Shown here one piece after another: positions 1,396 through 9,006 of a stretch of 24,878 nt of DNA; position 1 is the stretch's first letter, and each line of letters starts with the position of its first letter. The DNA is taken from IMG/VR virus record IMGVR_UViG_3300017755_000098, positions 1 to 24,878 of that record; one strand, given 5' to 3'. This DNA is from a virus. A program made the position numbers and the translations under genes. Under the pieces are notes generated by a model. It was not told where the DNA came from. It worked only from the letters and a program-made list of their open reading frames with translations, and did no database searches.

Positions 1396-1873
1396 TCTAA
1401 AAAAAAAGCTAACAGACCGACATAAAGACTGGATTAACATTGTGCGATCCTTTGGTTTAAAAGACTATGCTGAGGATTTAGTACAAGAAATGTATATTAG
1501 AGTTATAAGATATATTGATGATGGTAAAGATATAAGTTATAAAGGCGATATTAATTATATATATATTTATCAGTGTCTAAGGCATATGACCATTAACTTG
1601 AAAATAAAAAAGGCAAAAATAAATGTTATTAATATAGATGACTATTTATATAAGCTAAAGAAAAGTAACAATTTAGATGAAAATATAGAAAAAACATATA
1701 AACGAATAAATAAAAAACTTGATGAAATGTTTTGGTACGATTCAAAGGTATATAGAATAATTGAGGGGGGTATGAGTATTAAAGAATTAAGCAGACAAAG
1801 TAAAATAAGTTATTATAGTTTATATAGAACGTATAACAAAGTAAAAGATATATTAAAAAATGAAATTAAATGA
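1382..1873 (+). CDS. RNA polymerase sigma-like factor, copy 1
   Basis: This 163-residue protein has the two-domain layout of ECF/sigma-70-like factors. A region-2-like helical part (about 10-78) contains YAEDLVQEMYIRV, which matches the ECF pattern AEDLVQExF. A C-terminal helix-turn-helix, region-4-like, follows at 131-160 (SIKELSRQSKISYYSLYRTY). It should bind host core RNA polymerase and direct it to phage promoters. I chose the ATG at 1382, which overlaps the helicase stop by 14 bases; a TTG four codons earlier is possible but less likely. The next gene starts on its stop codon (ATGA). The protein is clearly related to the one encoded at 4365-4934, sharing HxxW, AED(L/I)V, MY(I/L)R, DISYK and SYY blocks in the same order. 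Sequence divergence from cellular sigmas is high, so promoter specificity is unknown. Confidence 0.75.
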   Translation: MHHSDLKKKLTDRHKDWINIVRSFGLKDYAEDLVQEMYIRVIRYIDDGKDISYKGDINYIYIYQCLRHMTINLKIKKAKINVINIDDYLYKLKKSNNLDENIEKTYKRINKKLDEMFWYDSKVYRIIEGGMSIKELSRQSKISYYSLYRTYNKVKDILKNEIK

Positions 1874-2409
1874 AAAATAGAAACTTAGCACACTCAGATA
1901 ACTGGGAAACACCACAAGATTTTTACAATAAACTTAATAATGAATTTAAATTTGATTTCGATCCTTGCCCTTTAAATTATCAATATGATGGTCTAAATAT
2001 TGAATGGGGTGATAAAAACTTTATAAATCCTCCATATAGCAGAAAACTTAAAGAAGCATTTGTTAAAAAGGCTATAGAAGAAAGCAATAAAGGTAAATTA
2101 TGTGTTTTGTTATTGCCAGTCTCAACAAGTACTAAATTATTTCATAACTTAATTTTACCAAATAAAAAAGAAATAAGATTTATAAAAGGTCGACTTAAAT
2201 TTTCAGGTGTCAATACGAAAGGTGAATATGTAAACAACAAGGTTGGGATGCACGATTCTATGCTTGTAATATTAAAAAAAAGTATTAGACTTGGTGATTT
2301 AGTTTACTATATAACAAAATATACAGGTATAAGATATGTATGGAAAAAGTTATACCCTGACTGTGATTGTGATAAAAGAAGAAAAAAATGGAACAAGATA
2401 AAATTGTAG
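1870..2409 (+). CDS. Phage Dam-like DNA N6-adenine methyltransferase with C-terminal CxC tail
   Basis: This 179-residue protein has the features of the phage N6-adenine methyltransferase family (DUF/Phage_methyltransferase, Dam-type). WETPQDFYNKLN (12-23) and FDFDPCP (28-34) come first, then the catalytic motif IV NPPY at 53-56 and LLLPVSTSTKLFH (80-92). It would transfer methyl groups from S-adenosylmethionine to adenine in phage DNA, probably as protection from host restriction. The methyltransferase core seems complete by about residue 136. The remaining roughly 40 residues (LGDLVYYITKYTGIRYVWKK, then YPDCDCDKRRKKW) look like a separate small module that I associate with stand-alone mini-proteins in Bacteroidetes phages. 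The ATG overlaps the previous stop (ATGA), and the next gene starts 22 bases before this stop. The target site cannot be read from the sequence. Confidence 0.85.
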   Translation: MKNRNLAHSDNWETPQDFYNKLNNEFKFDFDPCPLNYQYDGLNIEWGDKNFINPPYSRKLKEAFVKKAIEESNKGKLCVLLLPVSTSTKLFHNLILPNKKEIRFIKGRLKFSGVNTKGEYVNNKVGMHDSMLVILKKSIRLGDLVYYITKYTGIRYVWKKLYPDCDCDKRRKKWNKIKL

Positions 2410-2996: not shown

Positions 2997-3311
2997 ATGA
3001 ATTATAAGCCATTACCAAAACAGGTAACAATTAAAAAATCTAAAATAGATGGCTTAGGATTATTTGCGACAAAAAATATTAAAGCAAATACTTTAATCGG
3101 TACAACACATATATTAAATAAAAGCTACCCTAATGGTTATATTAGAACACCACTTGGAGGTTTTATAAATCATAGTGACTCGCCAAATGCTAAATTAATT
3201 AGCTGCGCACAAAGTAGAGATGTAGATTGTGAAACATTAATACTTAAAATTATCAAGGATATTAAAAAAGGTAATGAGATTGTATTAACTTATAGTATGT
3301 ACACTGTTTAA
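2997..3311 (+). CDS. Minimal SET-domain protein (predicted protein lysine methyltransferase)
   Basis: This 104-residue protein is essentially a bare SET domain. The N-terminal SKIDGLGLFATKNIKANTLI (15-34) is the usual xGxGLFAxxxIxxGxxI segment. GGFINHSDSPNA (54-65) is the NHSxxPN S-adenosylmethionine-binding motif, and IKKGNEIVLTYSMY (89-102) is the GEELTYxY motif with the active-site tyrosine. Such enzymes methylate lysine side chains on proteins. SET proteins are mainly eukaryotic, but compact versions occur in bacteria and phages. A phage copy could modify a host protein (polymerase, ribosome, nucleoid) or a virion protein; nothing in the sequence says which. Pre-SET and post-SET cysteine clusters are absent. 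The next gene is preceded by its own promoter, so this is probably the last gene of the first co-transcribed group. Confidence 0.85.
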   Translation: MNYKPLPKQVTIKKSKIDGLGLFATKNIKANTLIGTTHILNKSYPNGYIRTPLGGFINHSDSPNAKLISCAQSRDVDCETLILKIIKDIKKGNEIVLTYSMYTV

Positions 3312-3317
3312 TTTTTT

Positions 3318-3347
3318 TTTTTTATTTTTGTATAAAATAAATATAAT
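3318..3347 (+). promoter_or_regulatory. Bacteroidetes-type promoter with TAnnTTTG box
   Basis: A T-rich run leads into TATTTTTG at 3323-3330, an exact match to the Bacteroidetes -7 consensus TAnnTTTG. An A/T-only leader (TATAAAATAAATATAAT) reaches the ATG at 3348. The layout matches the elements before 9049 and 9308. No clear -33 TTTG is visible here. Confidence 0.55.
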
Positions 3348-3641
3348 ATGCAATTTTTAATCTTCGAAGCAGCTTTTAATTATATAGGTCAAATATTAAT
3401 TAAAGAACACGATCAAAAAATAAATAAAGAAATACATAATAAAATAAAATGTATTAATAAAATGTATATGTATACGCATATGCTTAAAACTGAATATGAT
3501 ATTTTAAATGACAAATATTATAATCTTGAATCAAAACATAATAAAGAAATACAAAAACTAAAAAAGAAATTAGATGAAGCAAATGACACTATTAGATTCG
3601 CAGACTTGGGAAGTAAGCGATTTGGAAAAAAAAATGATTGA
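3348..3641 (+). CDS. Coiled-coil protein of unknown function
   Basis: This is a 97-residue protein with a hydrophobic N-terminal stretch (MQFLIFEAAFNYIGQILI, 1-18). A mostly helical charged region follows with heptad character from about 50 to 82 (YDILNDKYYNLESKHNKEIQ, then KLKKKLDEAND), predicted to form a coiled coil. The first 18 residues could be a membrane-associating helix or just a buried amphipathic helix. It has its own TAnnTTTG promoter and overlaps the following exonuclease gene by up to 68 bases in another frame, an unusually long overlap here. I do not recognise a family. Its position directly before the RecE-like gene suggests a recombination accessory role, but this is only context. 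Confidence 0.6.
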   Translation: MQFLIFEAAFNYIGQILIKEHDQKINKEIHNKIKCINKMYMYTHMLKTEYDILNDKYYNLESKHNKEIQKLKKKLDEANDTIRFADLGSKRFGKKND

Positions 3642-4368
3642 TGATGATTTTTATTATGACTATTTAGGTAAAGCAGCACTAAGTAGCTCGACAATAAAAC
3701 ATTTATTAAAAAGCCCAAAAAAATATAAGTATCTTACAAAATATGCACAACCTATGACACCAGCTATGAAAATGGGCTGGTTATTACATTGCGCAGTATT
3801 AGAGCCTGAGAAATTTAGTAAGCAAGTATTTATTGATGTTCAAAGTAGAGTTACTAAAAAGTTTAAAGAAGCCGAAAAAGAAAATAAAAATATATTTACA
3901 GCAAAAGAAAGATCAGAAACAGAACGATTACAAGATGCTATATTTAGAAACGAACAAGCGCTTAAACTATTGACTAAATGTGAATATGAAGTACCAAAAA
4001 TAGGAATGATAAATGGAATACCCTTTCGTGGTAAAGCTGACGTATGGTGTAAAGATCGTATAGTTGATTTAAAAACTACAATGGATATTGAGCTTTGGGA
4101 GCCTGAAAGAAAGTATGCTATTGGAAGCCCTTATAAATTACATTATGACGTTCAAGTATTTATATATTGCACTATTTTTAACATTAGTTATGAAAAATTT
4201 GTATTTTTAATTATTGACAAAGGCTCACTAGATATTGGTATAAAAGATTGTAGTGAAGAATTTTACAATAGTGGCAAACAAAAAACATACGAAGCTATTG
4301 CACGGTACAAACAATTTTTTATAGATGGTGCTGATATTGATAGCTATACAATAAGAGGTACTTTATGA
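3574..4368 (+). CDS. RecE/DUF3799-type PD-(D/E)XK exonuclease
   Basis: This 264-residue protein matches the PDDEXK-like family DUF3799 (exodeoxyribonuclease VIII/RecE type), which resects duplex DNA for single-strand annealing recombination. Visible landmarks are LSSSTIKHLLKSPKKYK (36-52), GWLLHCAVLEPEKF (68-81, conserved His72), IPFRGKADVWCKDRIVDLKT (149-168, catalytic Asp156 and Asp165-x-Lys167) and YDVQVFIYC (191-199, conserved Gln194). The length equals the catalytic domain alone; the long N-terminal part of E. coli RecE is missing. The start at 3574 overlaps the previous gene by 68 bases, and an in-frame ATG at 3583 is an alternative. The partner annealing protein (RecT/Erf type) is not visible in the window and may lie upstream. 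The next gene starts at its stop codon. Confidence 0.85.
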   Translation: MKQMTLLDSQTWEVSDLEKKMIDDDFYYDYLGKAALSSSTIKHLLKSPKKYKYLTKYAQPMTPAMKMGWLLHCAVLEPEKFSKQVFIDVQSRVTKKFKEAEKENKNIFTAKERSETERLQDAIFRNEQALKLLTKCEYEVPKIGMINGIPFRGKADVWCKDRIVDLKTTMDIELWEPERKYAIGSPYKLHYDVQVFIYCTIFNISYEKFVFLIIDKGSLDIGIKDCSEEFYNSGKQKTYEAIARYKQFFIDGADIDSYTIRGTL

Positions 4369-4934
4369 TGCAAAAGGTTTACAAATCGCATAATAAATGG
4401 TTAGACATAACAAAAACTTTTGGAGATATATCTAGACATTATGCTGAGGATATTGTAAGCGATATGTATTTACGTTTGTATCAAAAAATTAAAAAAGGTC
4501 AAGATATATCATATAAAAGTCAGCCTAATTATTATTTTATATATAAAATGCTAAGGGGCATATCTATTGATTACTTTCGCAAATATAAAAAAATAGAAAT
4601 GTTATTATTAAGGATTGATAACAAAGGAGATTTAATTGTAAAAAATAAAGAAGGTAGATACTTAACAACATCTGTTACTAAATTAAAAGCACCTGAAATA
4701 TTTAATTATGAGCTTCATTATAAAAAGTATTTAAAAATAATAAACGAAGAAAAAAACAATGAAAGTAATTTATATTTTCATCAACAGCATTTTAACGTGT
4801 TTGATGAAATAGACAGAAATAATTTAAACATTACTAAATACTCGAAAATAAAAAACAAAAGTTATTATACAGTTTATAATAGTTATACAAAAGCAAAAAA
4901 AATATTAAAAGATAAATTAATAAACAGCTTATGA
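4365..4934 (+). CDS. RNA polymerase sigma-like factor, copy 2
   Basis: This 189-residue paralogue of the protein encoded at 1382-1873 keeps the same order of blocks. SHNKWLDITKTFG (8-20), HYAEDIVSDMYLRLYQ (25-40), QDISYK (46-51) and a Lys-rich region-2 end (YFRKYKK) form the first half. A spacer of about 70 residues with acidic and aromatic patches follows. The C-terminal helix-turn-helix lies at 155-185 (NITKYSKIKNKSYYTVYNSY). The spacer between the two domains is longer than in copy 1. The role should be promoter recognition with host core polymerase, probably of a different phage gene class. Two ATGs in tandem (4365 and 4368) overlap the exonuclease stop, and the ParB-like gene starts on its own stop. 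Assignment rests on motif pattern and paralogy; a DNA-binding transcription regulator without polymerase binding is the alternative. Confidence 0.7.
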   Translation: MMQKVYKSHNKWLDITKTFGDISRHYAEDIVSDMYLRLYQKIKKGQDISYKSQPNYYFIYKMLRGISIDYFRKYKKIEMLLLRIDNKGDLIVKNKEGRYLTTSVTKLKAPEIFNYELHYKKYLKIINEEKNNESNLYFHQQHFNVFDEIDRNNLNITKYSKIKNKSYYTVYNSYTKAKKILKDKLINSL

Positions 4935-5485
4935 TAAAAAAAGTAAACATATCACAAATAAAAGAAAACAAAAATAACCCAAGAGTTATAAAAGGATATA
5001 AATTTGAAAAACTTGTTAAGAGTATAAAAGATTTTCCGGAGATGATGCAATTAAGACCTATAATAGTAAACGATAAAAATATAATACTAGGTGGTAATAT
5101 GAGATATAAAGCTTCTGTGGAAGCAGGGCTAAAAGATATTTATATTGTTGAAGCAAAAGATTTAACACAAAAACAACAAGAAGAATTTATAATAAAAGAC
5201 AACAGTAGTTTTGGCGAGTGGGATTGGGATATATTAGCAAATGAGTGGAATGTTCAAGATTTATCTGATTGGGGTTTAGACATACCTTTTGACACAGATG
5301 AAAAAGAAATAATAAATGAAAAACCTAAAAATGATAATTATGAAGAAGTTGTAATTGTTGTAGCAAAAAATTTAAATGATTTAGATAAAATAAGTAATCT
5401 TTATAATTTAGAATGTGTTGAAATAAATGAAGATGTAAAATTACAAATAAATAAAGAAAAAAAAATGTATGTCTTTAAAAAATAA
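4931..5485 (+). CDS. ParB/sulfiredoxin-fold protein
   Basis: This 184-residue protein begins with a ParB-like N-terminal domain. ISQIKENKNNPR (7-18), KFEKLVKSIKDF (24-35), LRPIIVNDKNIILGGNMRYK (41-60) and ASVEAGL (61-67) correspond to the domain's NPR, conserved strand and GGxxRxxA (ParB box) motifs. A WD-rich segment DNSSFGEWDWDILANEWN (90-107) follows, as commonly seen in phage ParB-like proteins. The C-terminal third is charged and not assigned. Phage ParB-like proteins bind or nick DNA, hydrolyse nucleotides, or accompany DNA-modification enzymes. Here the gene is immediately followed by a predicted base-modifying glycosyltransferase, an association described for phage DNA-hypermodification operons. 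It has no chromosome-partition partner ParA, so a segregation role is unlikely. Overlaps of 4 and 17 bases link it to both neighbours. Confidence 0.8.
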   Translation: MIKKVNISQIKENKNNPRVIKGYKFEKLVKSIKDFPEMMQLRPIIVNDKNIILGGNMRYKASVEAGLKDIYIVEAKDLTQKQQEEFIIKDNSSFGEWDWDILANEWNVQDLSDWGLDIPFDTDEKEIINEKPKNDNYEEVVIVVAKNLNDLDKISNLYNLECVEINEDVKLQINKEKKMYVFKK

Positions 5486-6434
5486 AAAGTTAGTAGCAAT
5501 ACTAGGTGGCAGGAAATATCTCAATAATTTAACATTACGAAAATTTTTAACACCTGACATTAGAAACAAATTAAAAAAAGATAATATTGATTTTATAATT
5601 GCAACAAATAATAAAAGTGCAGCAAAAGAATATAAACAAATTGAAAATTTAAAAGTTGTAGAAACAAGTAAAAAATTACATAATAGTTTTAAAAATCGAC
5701 AAAGAGAAGCATTTACTAATTTAGGTGCTGAAACTAGAGAAACAATAAATAAATATTCAATAAAAAATAAATATACATACACTTTACATTTAGATGATAA
5801 TATTAATAATATTTCTGTTAGTTTATATAATTCAACATTAAAAAAAAAGTTTGCTACAAAAAGAACAATAAAAAAATATCAGCCTCAATCTTTTTATGAA
5901 ATAATTAAATTGTTATTTTTTGTAATTGAAAAATCTAATTCAGGTTGTGTTGGCATTACAATGTCTCAATATCCAAGCTCAAATAATCCAAGAATAACAG
6001 CAGGATTCCCATATAGTTTTTTTGTACATAAAATTGATAAAAATTTTGAATTTGAAAATTCTACTGAAGATGATATAATAATGAGCATATACAACGGTAA
6101 TAAAGGTAAACCTAGTTGTGTTATAAGAGATTGTATTATGTATGGAAAAACAGGTAAAAGCAAATCTAAAGATGGTAACCGTTTAATTTATAATAAAATG
6201 TTACAAAACAATCAAAGAGGAGAATATGCGGAAAAAACTTATCCTGAGATATATACAAGAAAAATTAGTTATATGCAAAAAAGTTCTACAAGTCAAAAAA
6301 AAATTGTTTTACAACATAAACATAGATTACATAAACCTAAAAATTGGGATCAACAATTAAGAGTTGATAAAATAGTTTTTCAAGAAATTAATAAGGTTGT
6401 TACTAATATATATAACAGAGAAAACAATGTTTAG
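5469..6434 (+). CDS. Predicted TET-associated-type glycosyltransferase (TAGT-like)
   Basis: This is a 321-residue protein. The N-terminal part (LVAILGGRKYL, then DFIIATNNKSA) resembles the first strands of a GT-A glycosyltransferase. The key element is YTLHLDDNINNI (104-115), a DxD-like LDDN metal/sugar-nucleotide motif. It is preceded by Arg residues in RETINKYSIKNKY (90-102), as I recall for phage TET/JBP-associated glycosyltransferases. A second acidic motif STEDDIIMS (198-206) and the KDGNRLIYNKML...YPEIYTRKI stretch (234-266) match the later EDxDLS and GGNxxxY...YPxV features of that family. The enzyme would transfer a sugar to a modified base. It overlaps the ParB-like gene by 17 bases and the UDP-galactopyranose mutase by 8, which suggests the donor is UDP-galactofuranose. 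Family assignment is from remembered motifs, not a search. Another GT-A enzyme acting on surface glycans is the alternative. Confidence 0.6.
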   Translation: MSLKNKKLVAILGGRKYLNNLTLRKFLTPDIRNKLKKDNIDFIIATNNKSAAKEYKQIENLKVVETSKKLHNSFKNRQREAFTNLGAETRETINKYSIKNKYTYTLHLDDNINNISVSLYNSTLKKKFATKRTIKKYQPQSFYEIIKLLFFVIEKSNSGCVGITMSQYPSSNNPRITAGFPYSFFVHKIDKNFEFENSTEDDIIMSIYNGNKGKPSCVIRDCIMYGKTGKSKSKDGNRLIYNKMLQNNQRGEYAEKTYPEIYTRKISYMQKSSTSQKKIVLQHKHRLHKPKNWDQQLRVDKIVFQEINKVVTNIYNRENNV

Positions 6435-7518
6435 TACAATAATAGTTGGTGCAGGTTTATCAGGTGCAACAATAGCAAGAAAATTAGCAGAAGATGGTAA
6501 TAAAGTTACAGTAATAGATAAAAGAGATCATTTAGGAGGTAATGTATATGATTATATAGATAAATTAACTGGAATTAGATTAAGTAAATATGGAGCACAT
6601 ATATTTCACACTAATTATGAAAATGTATGGGAATTTGTAAATAGATTTAGTAAATGGTTACCGTATGAACATAAAGTCTTATCTTATGTTAATAATAAAT
6701 TTGTACCAGTTCCTGTAAATATTACAACAGTAAATAAATTATTTAATTTATCTATAAAAACAAAAGTAGAAATGGATAACTGGCTCCAAAATAATCAAAT
6801 TATATCAAAGATAAATAATTCAAAAGATTCTGCACTAGCCAGAGTTGGTAAAGATTTATATAAATTGATGTTTGAAAATTACACAAAAAAACAATGGGAT
6901 TTATATCCTGAACAGTTAGAGCCATCAGTTTTACAAAGAATACCTGTGCGAAATAATTTTAACGAAAGATATTTTTCAGATAAATATGAAGCATTACCAG
7001 TTGATGGATATACAGTTTTTGTAAAAAATATATTAAATCATAAAAACATAACTTTAAAATTAAATGAACCCTATAATAAAAAAAAACATAAAGCAGATAA
7101 ATTAATTTTTACAGGTAAAATAGATTCTTTTTTTTCAAATAAATATGGTAAATTACAATATCGGTCTTTATATTTTAAATATAACACATATAAAATTAAA
7201 AACTATCAACCAACAGCAGTTGTGAATTACCCATCGCTTGAATATCCATATACACGAAAAATAGATTATAAAAAATTCTATAACACAGAATCAAACTACA
7301 GTGTAATTGCAGAAGAATTTAGCACAAATAAAGGTGAAGAATATTATCCAATACCAAACACAAAAAACAGACAAACATATTTGTTATATCAACAAGAAGC
7401 AAAAAAATATGAAAAACACGATATATTTTTTGTTGGAAGATTAGCAGAATATAAGTATTTTAATATGGATCAAGCAATTTACAGTGCATTGAAGTTATAT
7501 GAACAAATAAAAAAATGA
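6427..7518 (+). CDS. glf: UDP-galactopyranose mutase
   Basis: This 363-residue flavoenzyme converts UDP-galactopyranose to UDP-galactofuranose. The Rossmann FAD motif VGAGLSGATIA is at 7-17. Family blocks follow in order: HLGGNVYDY (35-43), KYGAHIFHT (54-62, with the conserved His), YTKKQWD (152-158), RIPVRNNFNERYF (171-183), YEALPVDGYT (187-196), YRSLYF (245-250), YTRKID (275-280) and GRLAEYKYFNMDQA (337-350). The substrate-contacting arginines (in RIPVR, YTRKID and GRLAEYKY) and the C-terminal FAD-binding MDQA segment are present, so it looks active and full length. I chose ATG 6427, which puts the FAD motif at the usual distance; a TTG ten codons earlier is unlikely. It overlaps the glycosyltransferase upstream and the small terminase downstream by 4 bases. 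In this context it probably supplies galactofuranose for that transferase. Confidence 0.95.
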   Translation: MFSTIIVGAGLSGATIARKLAEDGNKVTVIDKRDHLGGNVYDYIDKLTGIRLSKYGAHIFHTNYENVWEFVNRFSKWLPYEHKVLSYVNNKFVPVPVNITTVNKLFNLSIKTKVEMDNWLQNNQIISKINNSKDSALARVGKDLYKLMFENYTKKQWDLYPEQLEPSVLQRIPVRNNFNERYFSDKYEALPVDGYTVFVKNILNHKNITLKLNEPYNKKKHKADKLIFTGKIDSFFSNKYGKLQYRSLYFKYNTYKIKNYQPTAVVNYPSLEYPYTRKIDYKKFYNTESNYSVIAEEFSTNKGEEYYPIPNTKNRQTYLLYQQEAKKYEKHDIFFVGRLAEYKYFNMDQAIYSALKLYEQIKK

Positions 7519-7871
7519 ACAAAAGTGAACACATAAAAAAAGGATTAATCGAAGCGTTGGAAAAATCATTAGGAGTTGTAACTACTGCTTGTAAACAAGT
7601 TGGAATAGGTAGAACAACCTTTTATAATTATTATAATGAAGATAAAGAATTTGCAAAGAAAGTGGATGATATAGAAAATGTAGCGTTAGACTTTGCTGAA
7701 AGTCAACTACATAAACAAATACAAGATGGATCAACAGCAGCAACTATATTCTTATTAAAAACAAGAGGTAAAAAAAGAGGGTATGTTGAACGCCAAGAGA
7801 TTACAGGTGCAGATGGAATACCAACTGATGTTAAAATAGAAATATTAGATGCAAATAAAAGTACAAAGTAA
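7515..7871 (+). CDS. Terminase small subunit
   Basis: This 118-residue protein starts with a helix-turn-helix of the small-terminase type (LGVVTTACKQVGIGRTTFYN, 19-38). A helical middle is followed by STAATIFLLKTRGKKRGYVE (73-92), an arrangement common in TerS proteins whose C-terminus meets the large subunit. It would recognise the packaging start on phage DNA and assemble as a ring. It overlaps the mutase stop by 4 bases, and the large terminase starts 23 bases before its stop. The terminase is thus translated from the same message as the DNA-modification genes. A pac or cos site could not be identified from sequence alone. Confidence 0.85.
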   Translation: MNKSEHIKKGLIEALEKSLGVVTTACKQVGIGRTTFYNYYNEDKEFAKKVDDIENVALDFAESQLHKQIQDGSTAATIFLLKTRGKKRGYVERQEITGADGIPTDVKIEILDANKSTK

Positions 7872-9006
7872 TGTTGTATTTAAACACCTTGTAAATAATG
7901 ATAAGAAAATTATAATTAATCAAGGGGGTACAAGAAGTGGGAAAACGTATAATATTCTTCTTTTTATTATCTTTTATTATTGTTTACGAAATAATAAGAA
8001 AATTATTACTATATGTCGTAAAACTTTTCCTGCACTTCGTGCAACTGTTCTTAGAGATTTTATAAGTATATTACGAAAGTATGACTTATATAAAGAAGAA
8101 TATCACAACAAATCAAGCTCTGAATATACTTTGTTTGGTAATCTTATTGAGTTTATTAGTTTGGATCAGCCTGTTAAAGTTAGAGGAAGAAAACGAGAAC
8201 TATTATTTATTAACGAAGCAAATGAATTATACTTCGAGGACTGGCAGCAGTTATTATTTAGAACAAGTGAAAAAATAATACTAGACTACAACCCTAGTGA
8301 AGAATACCATTGGATATACGATAAGATAATACCAAGAGAAGATGCAAGTTTTTTAAAAACAAATTATTTAGATAATCCTTTTTTAGAAAAAACATTAGTA
8401 GATGAAATAGAAAGACTTAAATATACTGATGAACAATACTGGCAAATTTATGGGTTAGGAGAAAAAGGAATAAGCAAAGCTATTATATTTAATTATTATG
8501 AATATAATATACTACCAAGTCAAGCTGAATTTATTGCTATGGGTATGGACTTTGGCTTTACAAACGATCCAACAAGTTTAGTAGGTGTGTGGATTAATGG
8601 TTTAGATTTATATATAAAAGAATATCTATATAGAAATATGATGACGACAAATGATATACATAATAAATTTAAAGAAGTAGTTACAAATCAAGTTATTTAT
8701 GCCGATAGTAGTGAGCCAAGAACAATAGAAGAATTAAGAAGAATGGGCTGGAGAATAAGGGCAAGTTTAAAAGGTAGAGATTCTGTTAATGCTGGTATTG
8801 ATTTATTAAAAAGATATAAAATACATATACATAAAGATAGTGTTAATGCAATACAAGAGTTTAGAAATTATAAATGGAAAGAAGATCGCACAGGTAAATT
8901 AACCAATATCCCTGAAGATAAGCATAATCATATTACTGATGCAGTCAGGTATGCTACTTATTCAATATTAAGTAAACCTAACTTTGGTAAGTATGCTATT
9001 AGATAA
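7849..9006 (+). CDS. Terminase large subunit (ATPase and nuclease)
   Basis: This 385-residue packaging motor has both domains. The ATPase has a Walker A motif QGGTRSGKT (25-33) and a Walker B LLFINEANEL with catalytic Glu123. The coupling-like motif LDYNPSEEYHW (145-155) is of the Terminase_3/pBSX type. The RNase H-like nuclease carries the expected acidic residues in MDFGFTNDP (Asp234), YADSSEP (Asp286) and HITDAVRYA (Asp364). The protein would cut concatemers and drive DNA into the prohead through the portal. The length is at the short end for TerL but all motifs are present. It is followed by a small gap with a new promoter, so it is likely the last gene of the early or middle transcript. 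The portal is about 13 kb away, which is unusual. Confidence 0.95.
   Translation: MQIKVQSNVVFKHLVNNDKKIIINQGGTRSGKTYNILLFIIFYYCLRNNKKIITICRKTFPALRATVLRDFISILRKYDLYKEEYHNKSSSEYTLFGNLIEFISLDQPVKVRGRKRELLFINEANELYFEDWQQLLFRTSEKIILDYNPSEEYHWIYDKIIPREDASFLKTNYLDNPFLEKTLVDEIERLKYTDEQYWQIYGLGEKGISKAIIFNYYEYNILPSQAEFIAMGMDFGFTNDPTSLVGVWINGLDLYIKEYLYRNMMTTNDIHNKFKEVVTNQVIYADSSEPRTIEELRRMGWRIRASLKGRDSVNAGIDLLKRYKIHIHKDSVNAIQEFRNYKWKEDRTGKLTNIPEDKHNHITDAVRYATYSILSKPNFGKYAIR

Follow-up and report, generated by a model that had tools for sequence, protein, structure and literature searches.

A viral contig fragment of 24.9 kb, IMG/VR record IMGVR_UViG_3300017755_000098 (24,878 nucleotides, hereafter called the window), carries a cassette of three genes directly 5′ of its terminase genes. 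In the order ParB-TAGT-UGM and all on the plus strand, these genes code for a protein with a ParB domain, a glycosyltransferase of the TET-associated glycosyltransferase (TAGT) family, and a UDP-galactopyranose mutase (UGM). The cassette behaves as a mobile unit, and its first two genes recur as a pair in phages of very different hosts and in an archaeal virus. We tentatively propose that the cassette serves the galactofuranosylation of phage DNA.

Three overlapping genes upstream of the terminase genes

Each gene of the cassette overlaps the next. The ParB and TAGT genes share 17 bases, the TAGT and UGM genes share 8, and the UGM gene shares 4 with the probable terminase small subunit (TerS) gene that follows (Table 1). 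The original prediction for this locus, made from the sequence alone, held that a 321-residue TAGT-like protein and a complete UGM, overlapping by 8 bases, together place galactofuranose on phage DNA. The ParB gene, the third member of the cassette, was absent from that account. The overlap is confirmed, as the ATG at position 6427 gives exactly 8 bases; an in-frame TTG at position 6397 would yield a UGM of 373 amino acids and is the less likely start.

The TAGT family was reportedly defined in a 2013 paper. The LDDN, EDD, KDGNRLIY, and YPEIY features on which the assignment had been based are indeed present (LDDN at residues 108-111, TEDD at 199-202, DGNRLIY at 235-241, and YPEIY at 258-262). 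Furthermore, D109, D110, N111, E200, and D202 of the metal-binding/catalytic acidic motifs are invariant across 24 diverse TAGT members. Membership in the family is borne out by the Pfam TAGT model (E 7.6e-7, above the curated cut-off of 27.5 bits), a cut-off that is also exceeded by the TAGT proteins of most sister contigs, and by a match at 2e-10 to phrog_842, which is annotated as a beta-glucosyl-HMC-alpha-glucosyltransferase. An AlphaFold2 model built on an alignment of 24 diverse sequences reached a predicted local confidence (pLDDT) of 82 and a predicted template modeling score (pTM) of 0.86, whereas an earlier version with 11 sequences was poor (pLDDT 57). Its best viral structure match in BFVD is a protein named TET-Associated Glycosyltransferase (E 7.6e-17, template modeling score (TM) 0.70-0.76).

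Matches to PDB structures are generic GT-A enzymes with a query-length TM of about 0.40 or less (Foldseek), and the VIA Z for PDB folds against the model reached 15, for mannosylglycerate synthase. Thus, no specific cell-wall or lipopolysaccharide transferase fold, the match that would have refuted the original prediction, approaches the TM of 0.70 obtained with TAGT models. An identity as such a transferase was rejected, given these generic folds and an unconvincing sequence search of the PDB. A search of a bacterial genome collection with the window's TAGT family gave zero matches.

The UGM matches its Pfam family and the D. radiodurans UGM 3hdq over its full length. In addition, the residues used for catalysis by K. 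pneumoniae UGM (H63, W160, R174, Y185, R250, N270, R280, Y314, R343, and Y349) are conserved, and the predicted identity of the protein therefore stands. The ParB_N domain of the first protein scores 28.8 bits against a curated cut-off of 26.3. One of the two PHROG families that it matches, phrog_498, consists of ParB-methyltransferase fusions, and the window protein resembles the ParB portion of phage DNA-methyltransferase fusions.

Table 1. Genes of the cassette and other annotated genes of the window
Feature	Position	Strand	Evidence
ParB_N-domain protein, 184 aa	4931..5485	+	PF02195 1.3e-6; phrog_940 2e-25; phrog_498 2.8e-25
TAGT-family GT-A glycosyltransferase, 321 aa	5469..6434	+	PF20691 29.7 bits; phrog_842; AlphaFold2 model
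UDP-galactopyranose mutase (UGM), 363 aa from ATG 6427	6427..7518	+	PF03275 3.5e-62; 3hdq 3.8e-94
Probable terminase small subunit (TerS), helix-turn-helix (HTH) protein	7515..7871	+	HTH_8 2e-5, weak GP3_package match; precedes TerL
Terminase large subunit (TerL)	7849..9006	+	Terminase_3 1.5e-19; Terminase_3C 3.5e-20
Exonuclease VIII-like / DUF3799 protein, upstream of cassette	3574..4368	+	PF12684 1.4e-18; phrog_412 6.9e-33
Dam-type N6-adenine methyltransferase	1870..2409	+	PF05869 5.1e-19

Conservation and mobility of the cassette

About 17 IMG/VR contigs carry relatives. Every sister contig that spans the region keeps the ParB-TAGT-UGM order and the 17-base overlap between the first two genes, and ratios of nonsynonymous to synonymous change (dN/dS) of about 0.1-0.3 indicate purifying selection on TAGT and UGM. 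The arrangement is therefore far above chance.

The cassette also moves. In blastn comparisons with two contigs, L005 and L008, the sole blocks shared with the window are positions 4929-7678 and 4914-7531, which correspond to ParB-TAGT-UGM. The proteins of these contigs are 63% (TAGT) and 73% (UGM) identical to those of the window, whereas TerL is only about 30% identical, as befits different phages. A third and more closely related contig, L004, is 91-99% identical to the window in nucleotide sequence across most of positions 5600-7600 and roughly 70-90% identical outside. Synonymous divergence (dS) between the two is 0.19 for TAGT and 0.20 for UGM, compared with 0.67 for ParB, 0.68 for TerS, and 1.08 for TerL. 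Because their dS is so low and their identity so high relative to the flanking genes, TAGT and UGM must have been exchanged jointly and recently. This joint exchange is strong evidence for a functional linkage, and the two proteins are thus likely to work together. The original pairing of the two genes holds insofar as both move together.

One locus departs in detail: in L023 (2665-3602), a frameshift or an assembly error disrupts the last part of the TAGT reading frame, and the adjoining UGM is intact. Another lineage, represented by L016, carries additional genes upstream of ParB-TAGT-UGM (6295-8269). Two of their products are glycosyltransferase-like, one belonging to phrog_7162 and the other short and GT2-like with the motif LDDD, and a further one is a Methyltransf_24 protein. 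Perhaps these might extend or methylate the sugar. The same phage carries a gene that matches the MjaI restriction endonuclease family (3114-3749; PF09568, 3.4e-9).

ParB-TAGT pairs in other viruses

When the TAGT of an actinophage was used as a query, an overlapping ParB gene was found in all 17 loci recovered, a set that includes near-identical ones (L042 is Gordonia phage Lilbeanie, and L053 is the contig of L025). The pair in Microbacterium phage Gingerbug is isolated and lies on the strand opposite to its neighboring genes. Gene 25 of phage phi jlb1, which itself came from a ParB search, is a TAGT (1e-32), and its use as a second TAGT query revealed more cultured viruses. In E. coli 666R9, Lactobacillus c5, Porphyromonas phage005b, and the archaeal virus HHTV-2, a ParB gene precedes TAGT upstream of the terminase. 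The query that found these four was TAGT rather than ParB, so their selection does not account for the pairing. The ParB-TAGT pair is therefore widespread, occurring in phages of Actinobacteria, Lactobacillus, E. coli, and Porphyromonas and in an archaeal virus.

There are exceptions. The 281-amino-acid product of the gene upstream of TAGT in Nocardia phage NTR1 is not recognized by the ParB model, and Vibrio phage SRILMA (196 kb) encodes a TAGT, but no ParB is annotated in the part of its genome that was read. In phage KSY1, gp093 is a short protein that is ParB-like by PHROGs only, with no match to Pfam or to our own model. Contig L051 (97 kb) has a tandem pair of ParB genes 5′ of TAGT (4870-5993).

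Genomic surroundings of the cassette

The portal protein of the window is 39% identical to its counterpart in Nonlabens phages P12024S/L, a similarity that points to a probable host among the Bacteroidota. Scans for promoters and terminators across the cassette gave signals no better than those in shuffled sequence. The Dam-type methyltransferase (Table 1) is not seen in sister contig L004. Two proteins, encoded at 1370-1873 and 4365-4934, each show a weak match to sigma-70 region 2; the latter gene is missing from the near-identical contig L003, which has a gap between window positions 4397 and 4929. The phage early region also contains a SET-domain protein of 104 amino acids (2997-3311; 1.2e-10).

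DNA as the likely acceptor

Nine phage neighborhoods of ParB genes related to that of the window were read for the adjoining gene. As partner, Javan492 has an N6/N4 methyltransferase, BS-TP3 a ParB-methyltransferase protein directly before TerS-TerL, and phi jlb1 a TAGT, again before TerS-TerL. In Pelagibacter phage HTVC112P (MN698246.1; 2495-4717), ParB overlaps a TET/JBP dioxygenase (1e-29; database annotation DnaJ/SNF2), which is followed by an FkbM methyltransferase. Microbacterium phage Smarties (MN586007.1; 2459-4634) has overlapping genes for ParB, an annotated glycosyltransferase with no Pfam match, and a UDP-glucose dehydrogenase, and so appears to hold a parallel module of ParB, transferase, and sugar enzyme. 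The ParB of Leptospira phage LE3 (MF974396.1; 3962-5583) overlaps a GNAT-like protein whose matches to GNAT acetyltransferases and P-loop proteins are weak; it might be another ParB-partnered modifier. No clear partner could be assigned in the other three neighborhoods.

In published work, ParBc genes are reported together with CmoX, a phage cytosine carboxymethyltransferase (PMC12783734), ParB-methyltransferase fusions are enriched in prophages (PMC12704722), and the characterized TAGT of phage T6 glycosylates DNA (PMC13216743, PMC13390438). Because the ParB-partner slot before the terminase genes holds DNA-modifying enzymes in other phages, DNA as the acceptor is supported, albeit indirectly. 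By this analogy, DNA is the likely substrate of the window TAGT as well.

Galactofuranose as the likely sugar

Since UGM overlaps TAGT and was exchanged with it, galactofuranose is likely to be the sugar that the window TAGT uses. We found no report of galactofuranose modification of phage DNA, or of a ParB-TAGT link, in the literature searched.

An independent candidate for galactofuranosylated DNA is the cultured Lactobacillus phage ATCCB (MK504445.1), in which genes for a thymidylate-synthase-family protein, a T4-type beta-glucosyltransferase, and UGM adjoin (4052-7107). Four other phages with UGM (Aes012, FBB1, Atu_ph04, and ORM_20) have thymidylate-synthase-family genes somewhere in their genomes. 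Because large phages often have genes of this family, the link is weakened. In the Aeromonas T4-like phage Aes012 (JN377895.1; 5992-9266), UGM is followed by two conserved proteins (phrog_14998 and phrog_13881) with no Pfam match, the first of which is shared by Erwinia FBB1. Possibly both are new transferases.

Phages with a ParB-TAGT pair and no UGM may borrow UDP-galactofuranose from their hosts. UGM is present in L. lactis, the host of KSY1, and in a Pseudonocardia metagenome-assembled genome that holds a TAGT locus, which is suggestive only.

A proposed function and its alternatives

The best explanation in our judgment, although we regard it as just short of probable, is that the window carries a ParB-partnered mobile cassette for galactofuranosylation of phage DNA. 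UGM would draw on the host's UDP-galactopyranose to make UDP-galactofuranose, and TAGT, as a metal-dependent GT-A transferase, would transfer galactofuranose to phage DNA. The ParB-domain protein would deliver the transferase to DNA, a role that ParB domains may also play for phage DNA methyltransferases and other base modifiers. The modification would presumably protect the phage DNA from host nucleases. If true, galactofuranosylated DNA would be a barrier of a new kind against restriction and CRISPR.

Several observations weigh against this proposal. The window TAGT is only remotely similar to characterized TAGTs, and a profile comparison of its family with the single T6 TAGT sequence, which has no alignment depth, found nothing significant. 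GT-A proteins often use proteins or glycans as acceptors. UGM is absent from most ParB-TAGT phages, and thus galactofuranose cannot be assumed for the whole family. In addition, searches found no enzyme that would prepare a base for glycosylation. A thymidylate-synthase-family (Thymidylat_synt) gene was not found in 20 IMG/VR records (in which the window lineage is represented by fragments) or in KSY1, and TET/JBP (PF12851) had no match in the window, itself a fragment, or in its relatives, with HTVC112P detected as a positive control. Neither gene was found in seven complete ParB-TAGT genomes (Gingerbug, Lilbeanie, phi jlb1, 666R9, c5, HHTV-2, and the Porphyromonas phage), nor in KSY1 or NTR1. 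Moreover, none of 14 records tested has a C5-methyltransferase. The hydroxylase searches do recover the known cases T6 gp42, ATCCB, and HTVC112P.

These same absences bear on a conventional two-step pathway, in which an enzyme encoded outside the window, either a TET/JBP that acts on a 5-methyl base or a hydroxymethylase for dCMP or dUMP, would supply a 5-hydroxymethyl base to which TAGT adds galactofuranose. The T6 TAGT operates in a phage with a dCMP hydroxymethylase (PMC13216743), the window is a genome fragment, and the UGM phages ATCCB, Aes012, FBB1, Atu_ph04, and ORM_20 all have thymidylate-synthase-family genes. However, because no such enzyme emerged from the complete ParB-TAGT genomes or the relatives of the window, we regard this pathway as unlikely. 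The original prediction had placed a hydroxylase or hydroxymethylase beyond the window, possibly upstream, and on this point it is not upheld, in that the genome search it called for (run on the window, its relatives, and ParB-TAGT genomes) found nothing. What endures of it is the TAGT, the UGM, their joint movement, and, indirectly, the DNA acceptor.

The acceptor of ParB-TAGT systems could therefore be prepared by an unrecognized hydroxylase or by a host function, or else the sugar is attached to an unhydroxylated base. It is tempting to speculate further that ParB-TAGT is a self-sufficient system of bacterial and archaeal viruses, in which ParB guides a sugar straight onto an unhydroxylated base (e.g., an exocyclic amine), with galactofuranose used where UGM is present. 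This broader idea would, if true, constitute a new base chemistry, but we regard it as unlikely.

Alternatively, the cassette might galactofuranosylate a phage structural protein or a host surface glycan, and thereby change adsorption or exclude superinfection, with ParB as a mere neighbor. UGM normally supplies cell-envelope polymers, the L016 lineage has, 5′ of ParB, two further genes of glycosyltransferase type along with one for a Methyltransf_24 protein, and protein and glycan transferases are among the top PDB folds. We nonetheless find this improbable: profile and fold indicate a TAGT rather than an envelope transferase, an overlapping ParB is kept in very different phages, and DNA-modifying enzymes occupy the ParB-partner slot elsewhere. 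Least plausible, and quite doubtful, is that TAGT places glucose, galactopyranose, or arabinofuranose from the corresponding UDP-sugar on DNA while UGM serves another end or is a UDP-arabinopyranose mutase. In favor of this reading, UGM is missing from most ParB-TAGT phages, the T6 enzyme uses glucose, and Mosigvirus DNA carries arabinose (PMC13390438). Against it, gene overlaps link the window UGM to its neighbors, UGM and TAGT were exchanged jointly, and some hosts of UGM-less phages own a UGM.

Comparison with known systems

By the tests made here, the cassette includes members of the TAGT and UGM families. It may resemble T-even or TET-type systems in its working. The TAGT of T-even phages (T6 and T2) shares its Pfam family, PHROG, and GT-A fold with the window protein and is, as presumed for the window gene, a phage gene of DNA modification. 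However, T6 adds a second glucose to glucosyl-5-hydroxymethylcytosine and has a dCMP hydroxymethylase and an alpha-glucosyltransferase, neither of which is seen here, whereas the window TAGT is accompanied by ParB and UGM.

ParB-methyltransferase fusions and pairs (Javan492 and BS-TP3; PMC12704722) and ParBc genes near CmoX (PMC12783734) are similar in that a related ParB adjoins a DNA-modifying enzyme, and the pairs of Javan492 and BS-TP3 lie close to terminase genes, as does the window cassette. The effector of the window differs: it is a glycosyltransferase, and the enzyme that would make its sugar donor is encoded alongside it. The ATCCB cluster also joins UGM to a DNA-glycosylation-type transferase, but the latter is a T4-type beta-glucosyltransferase (PF09198) accompanied by a thymidylate-synthase-family enzyme, with no annotated TAGT or ParB in the stretch read. 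The arabinosyl-cytosine DNA of Mosigvirus and RB69 offers a precedent for a non-glucose sugar on phage DNA and for phage-encoded sugar genes (PMC6024577, PMC13390438); its base precursor, in contrast, is 5-hydroxy-dCMP, the product of a thymidylate-synthase-family enzyme, and its sugar is arabinose.

Finally, solitary TAGTs occur in 288 of 753 phage genomes, with no alpha- or beta-glucosyltransferase and with a function stated to be undefined (PMC13216743, 2026). Like these, the window TAGT stands without other DNA glucosyltransferases. The main text of that report mentions neither ParB nor galactose, whereas the window TAGT is tied to both ParB and UGM. Thus, part of the solitary class gains a constant partner, ParB, and a frequent site near the terminase genes, and one lineage gains a defined sugar donor. 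The role of these enzymes can now be tested by nucleoside analysis of the cultured viruses c5, phi jlb1, HHTV-2, Gingerbug, and Lilbeanie.

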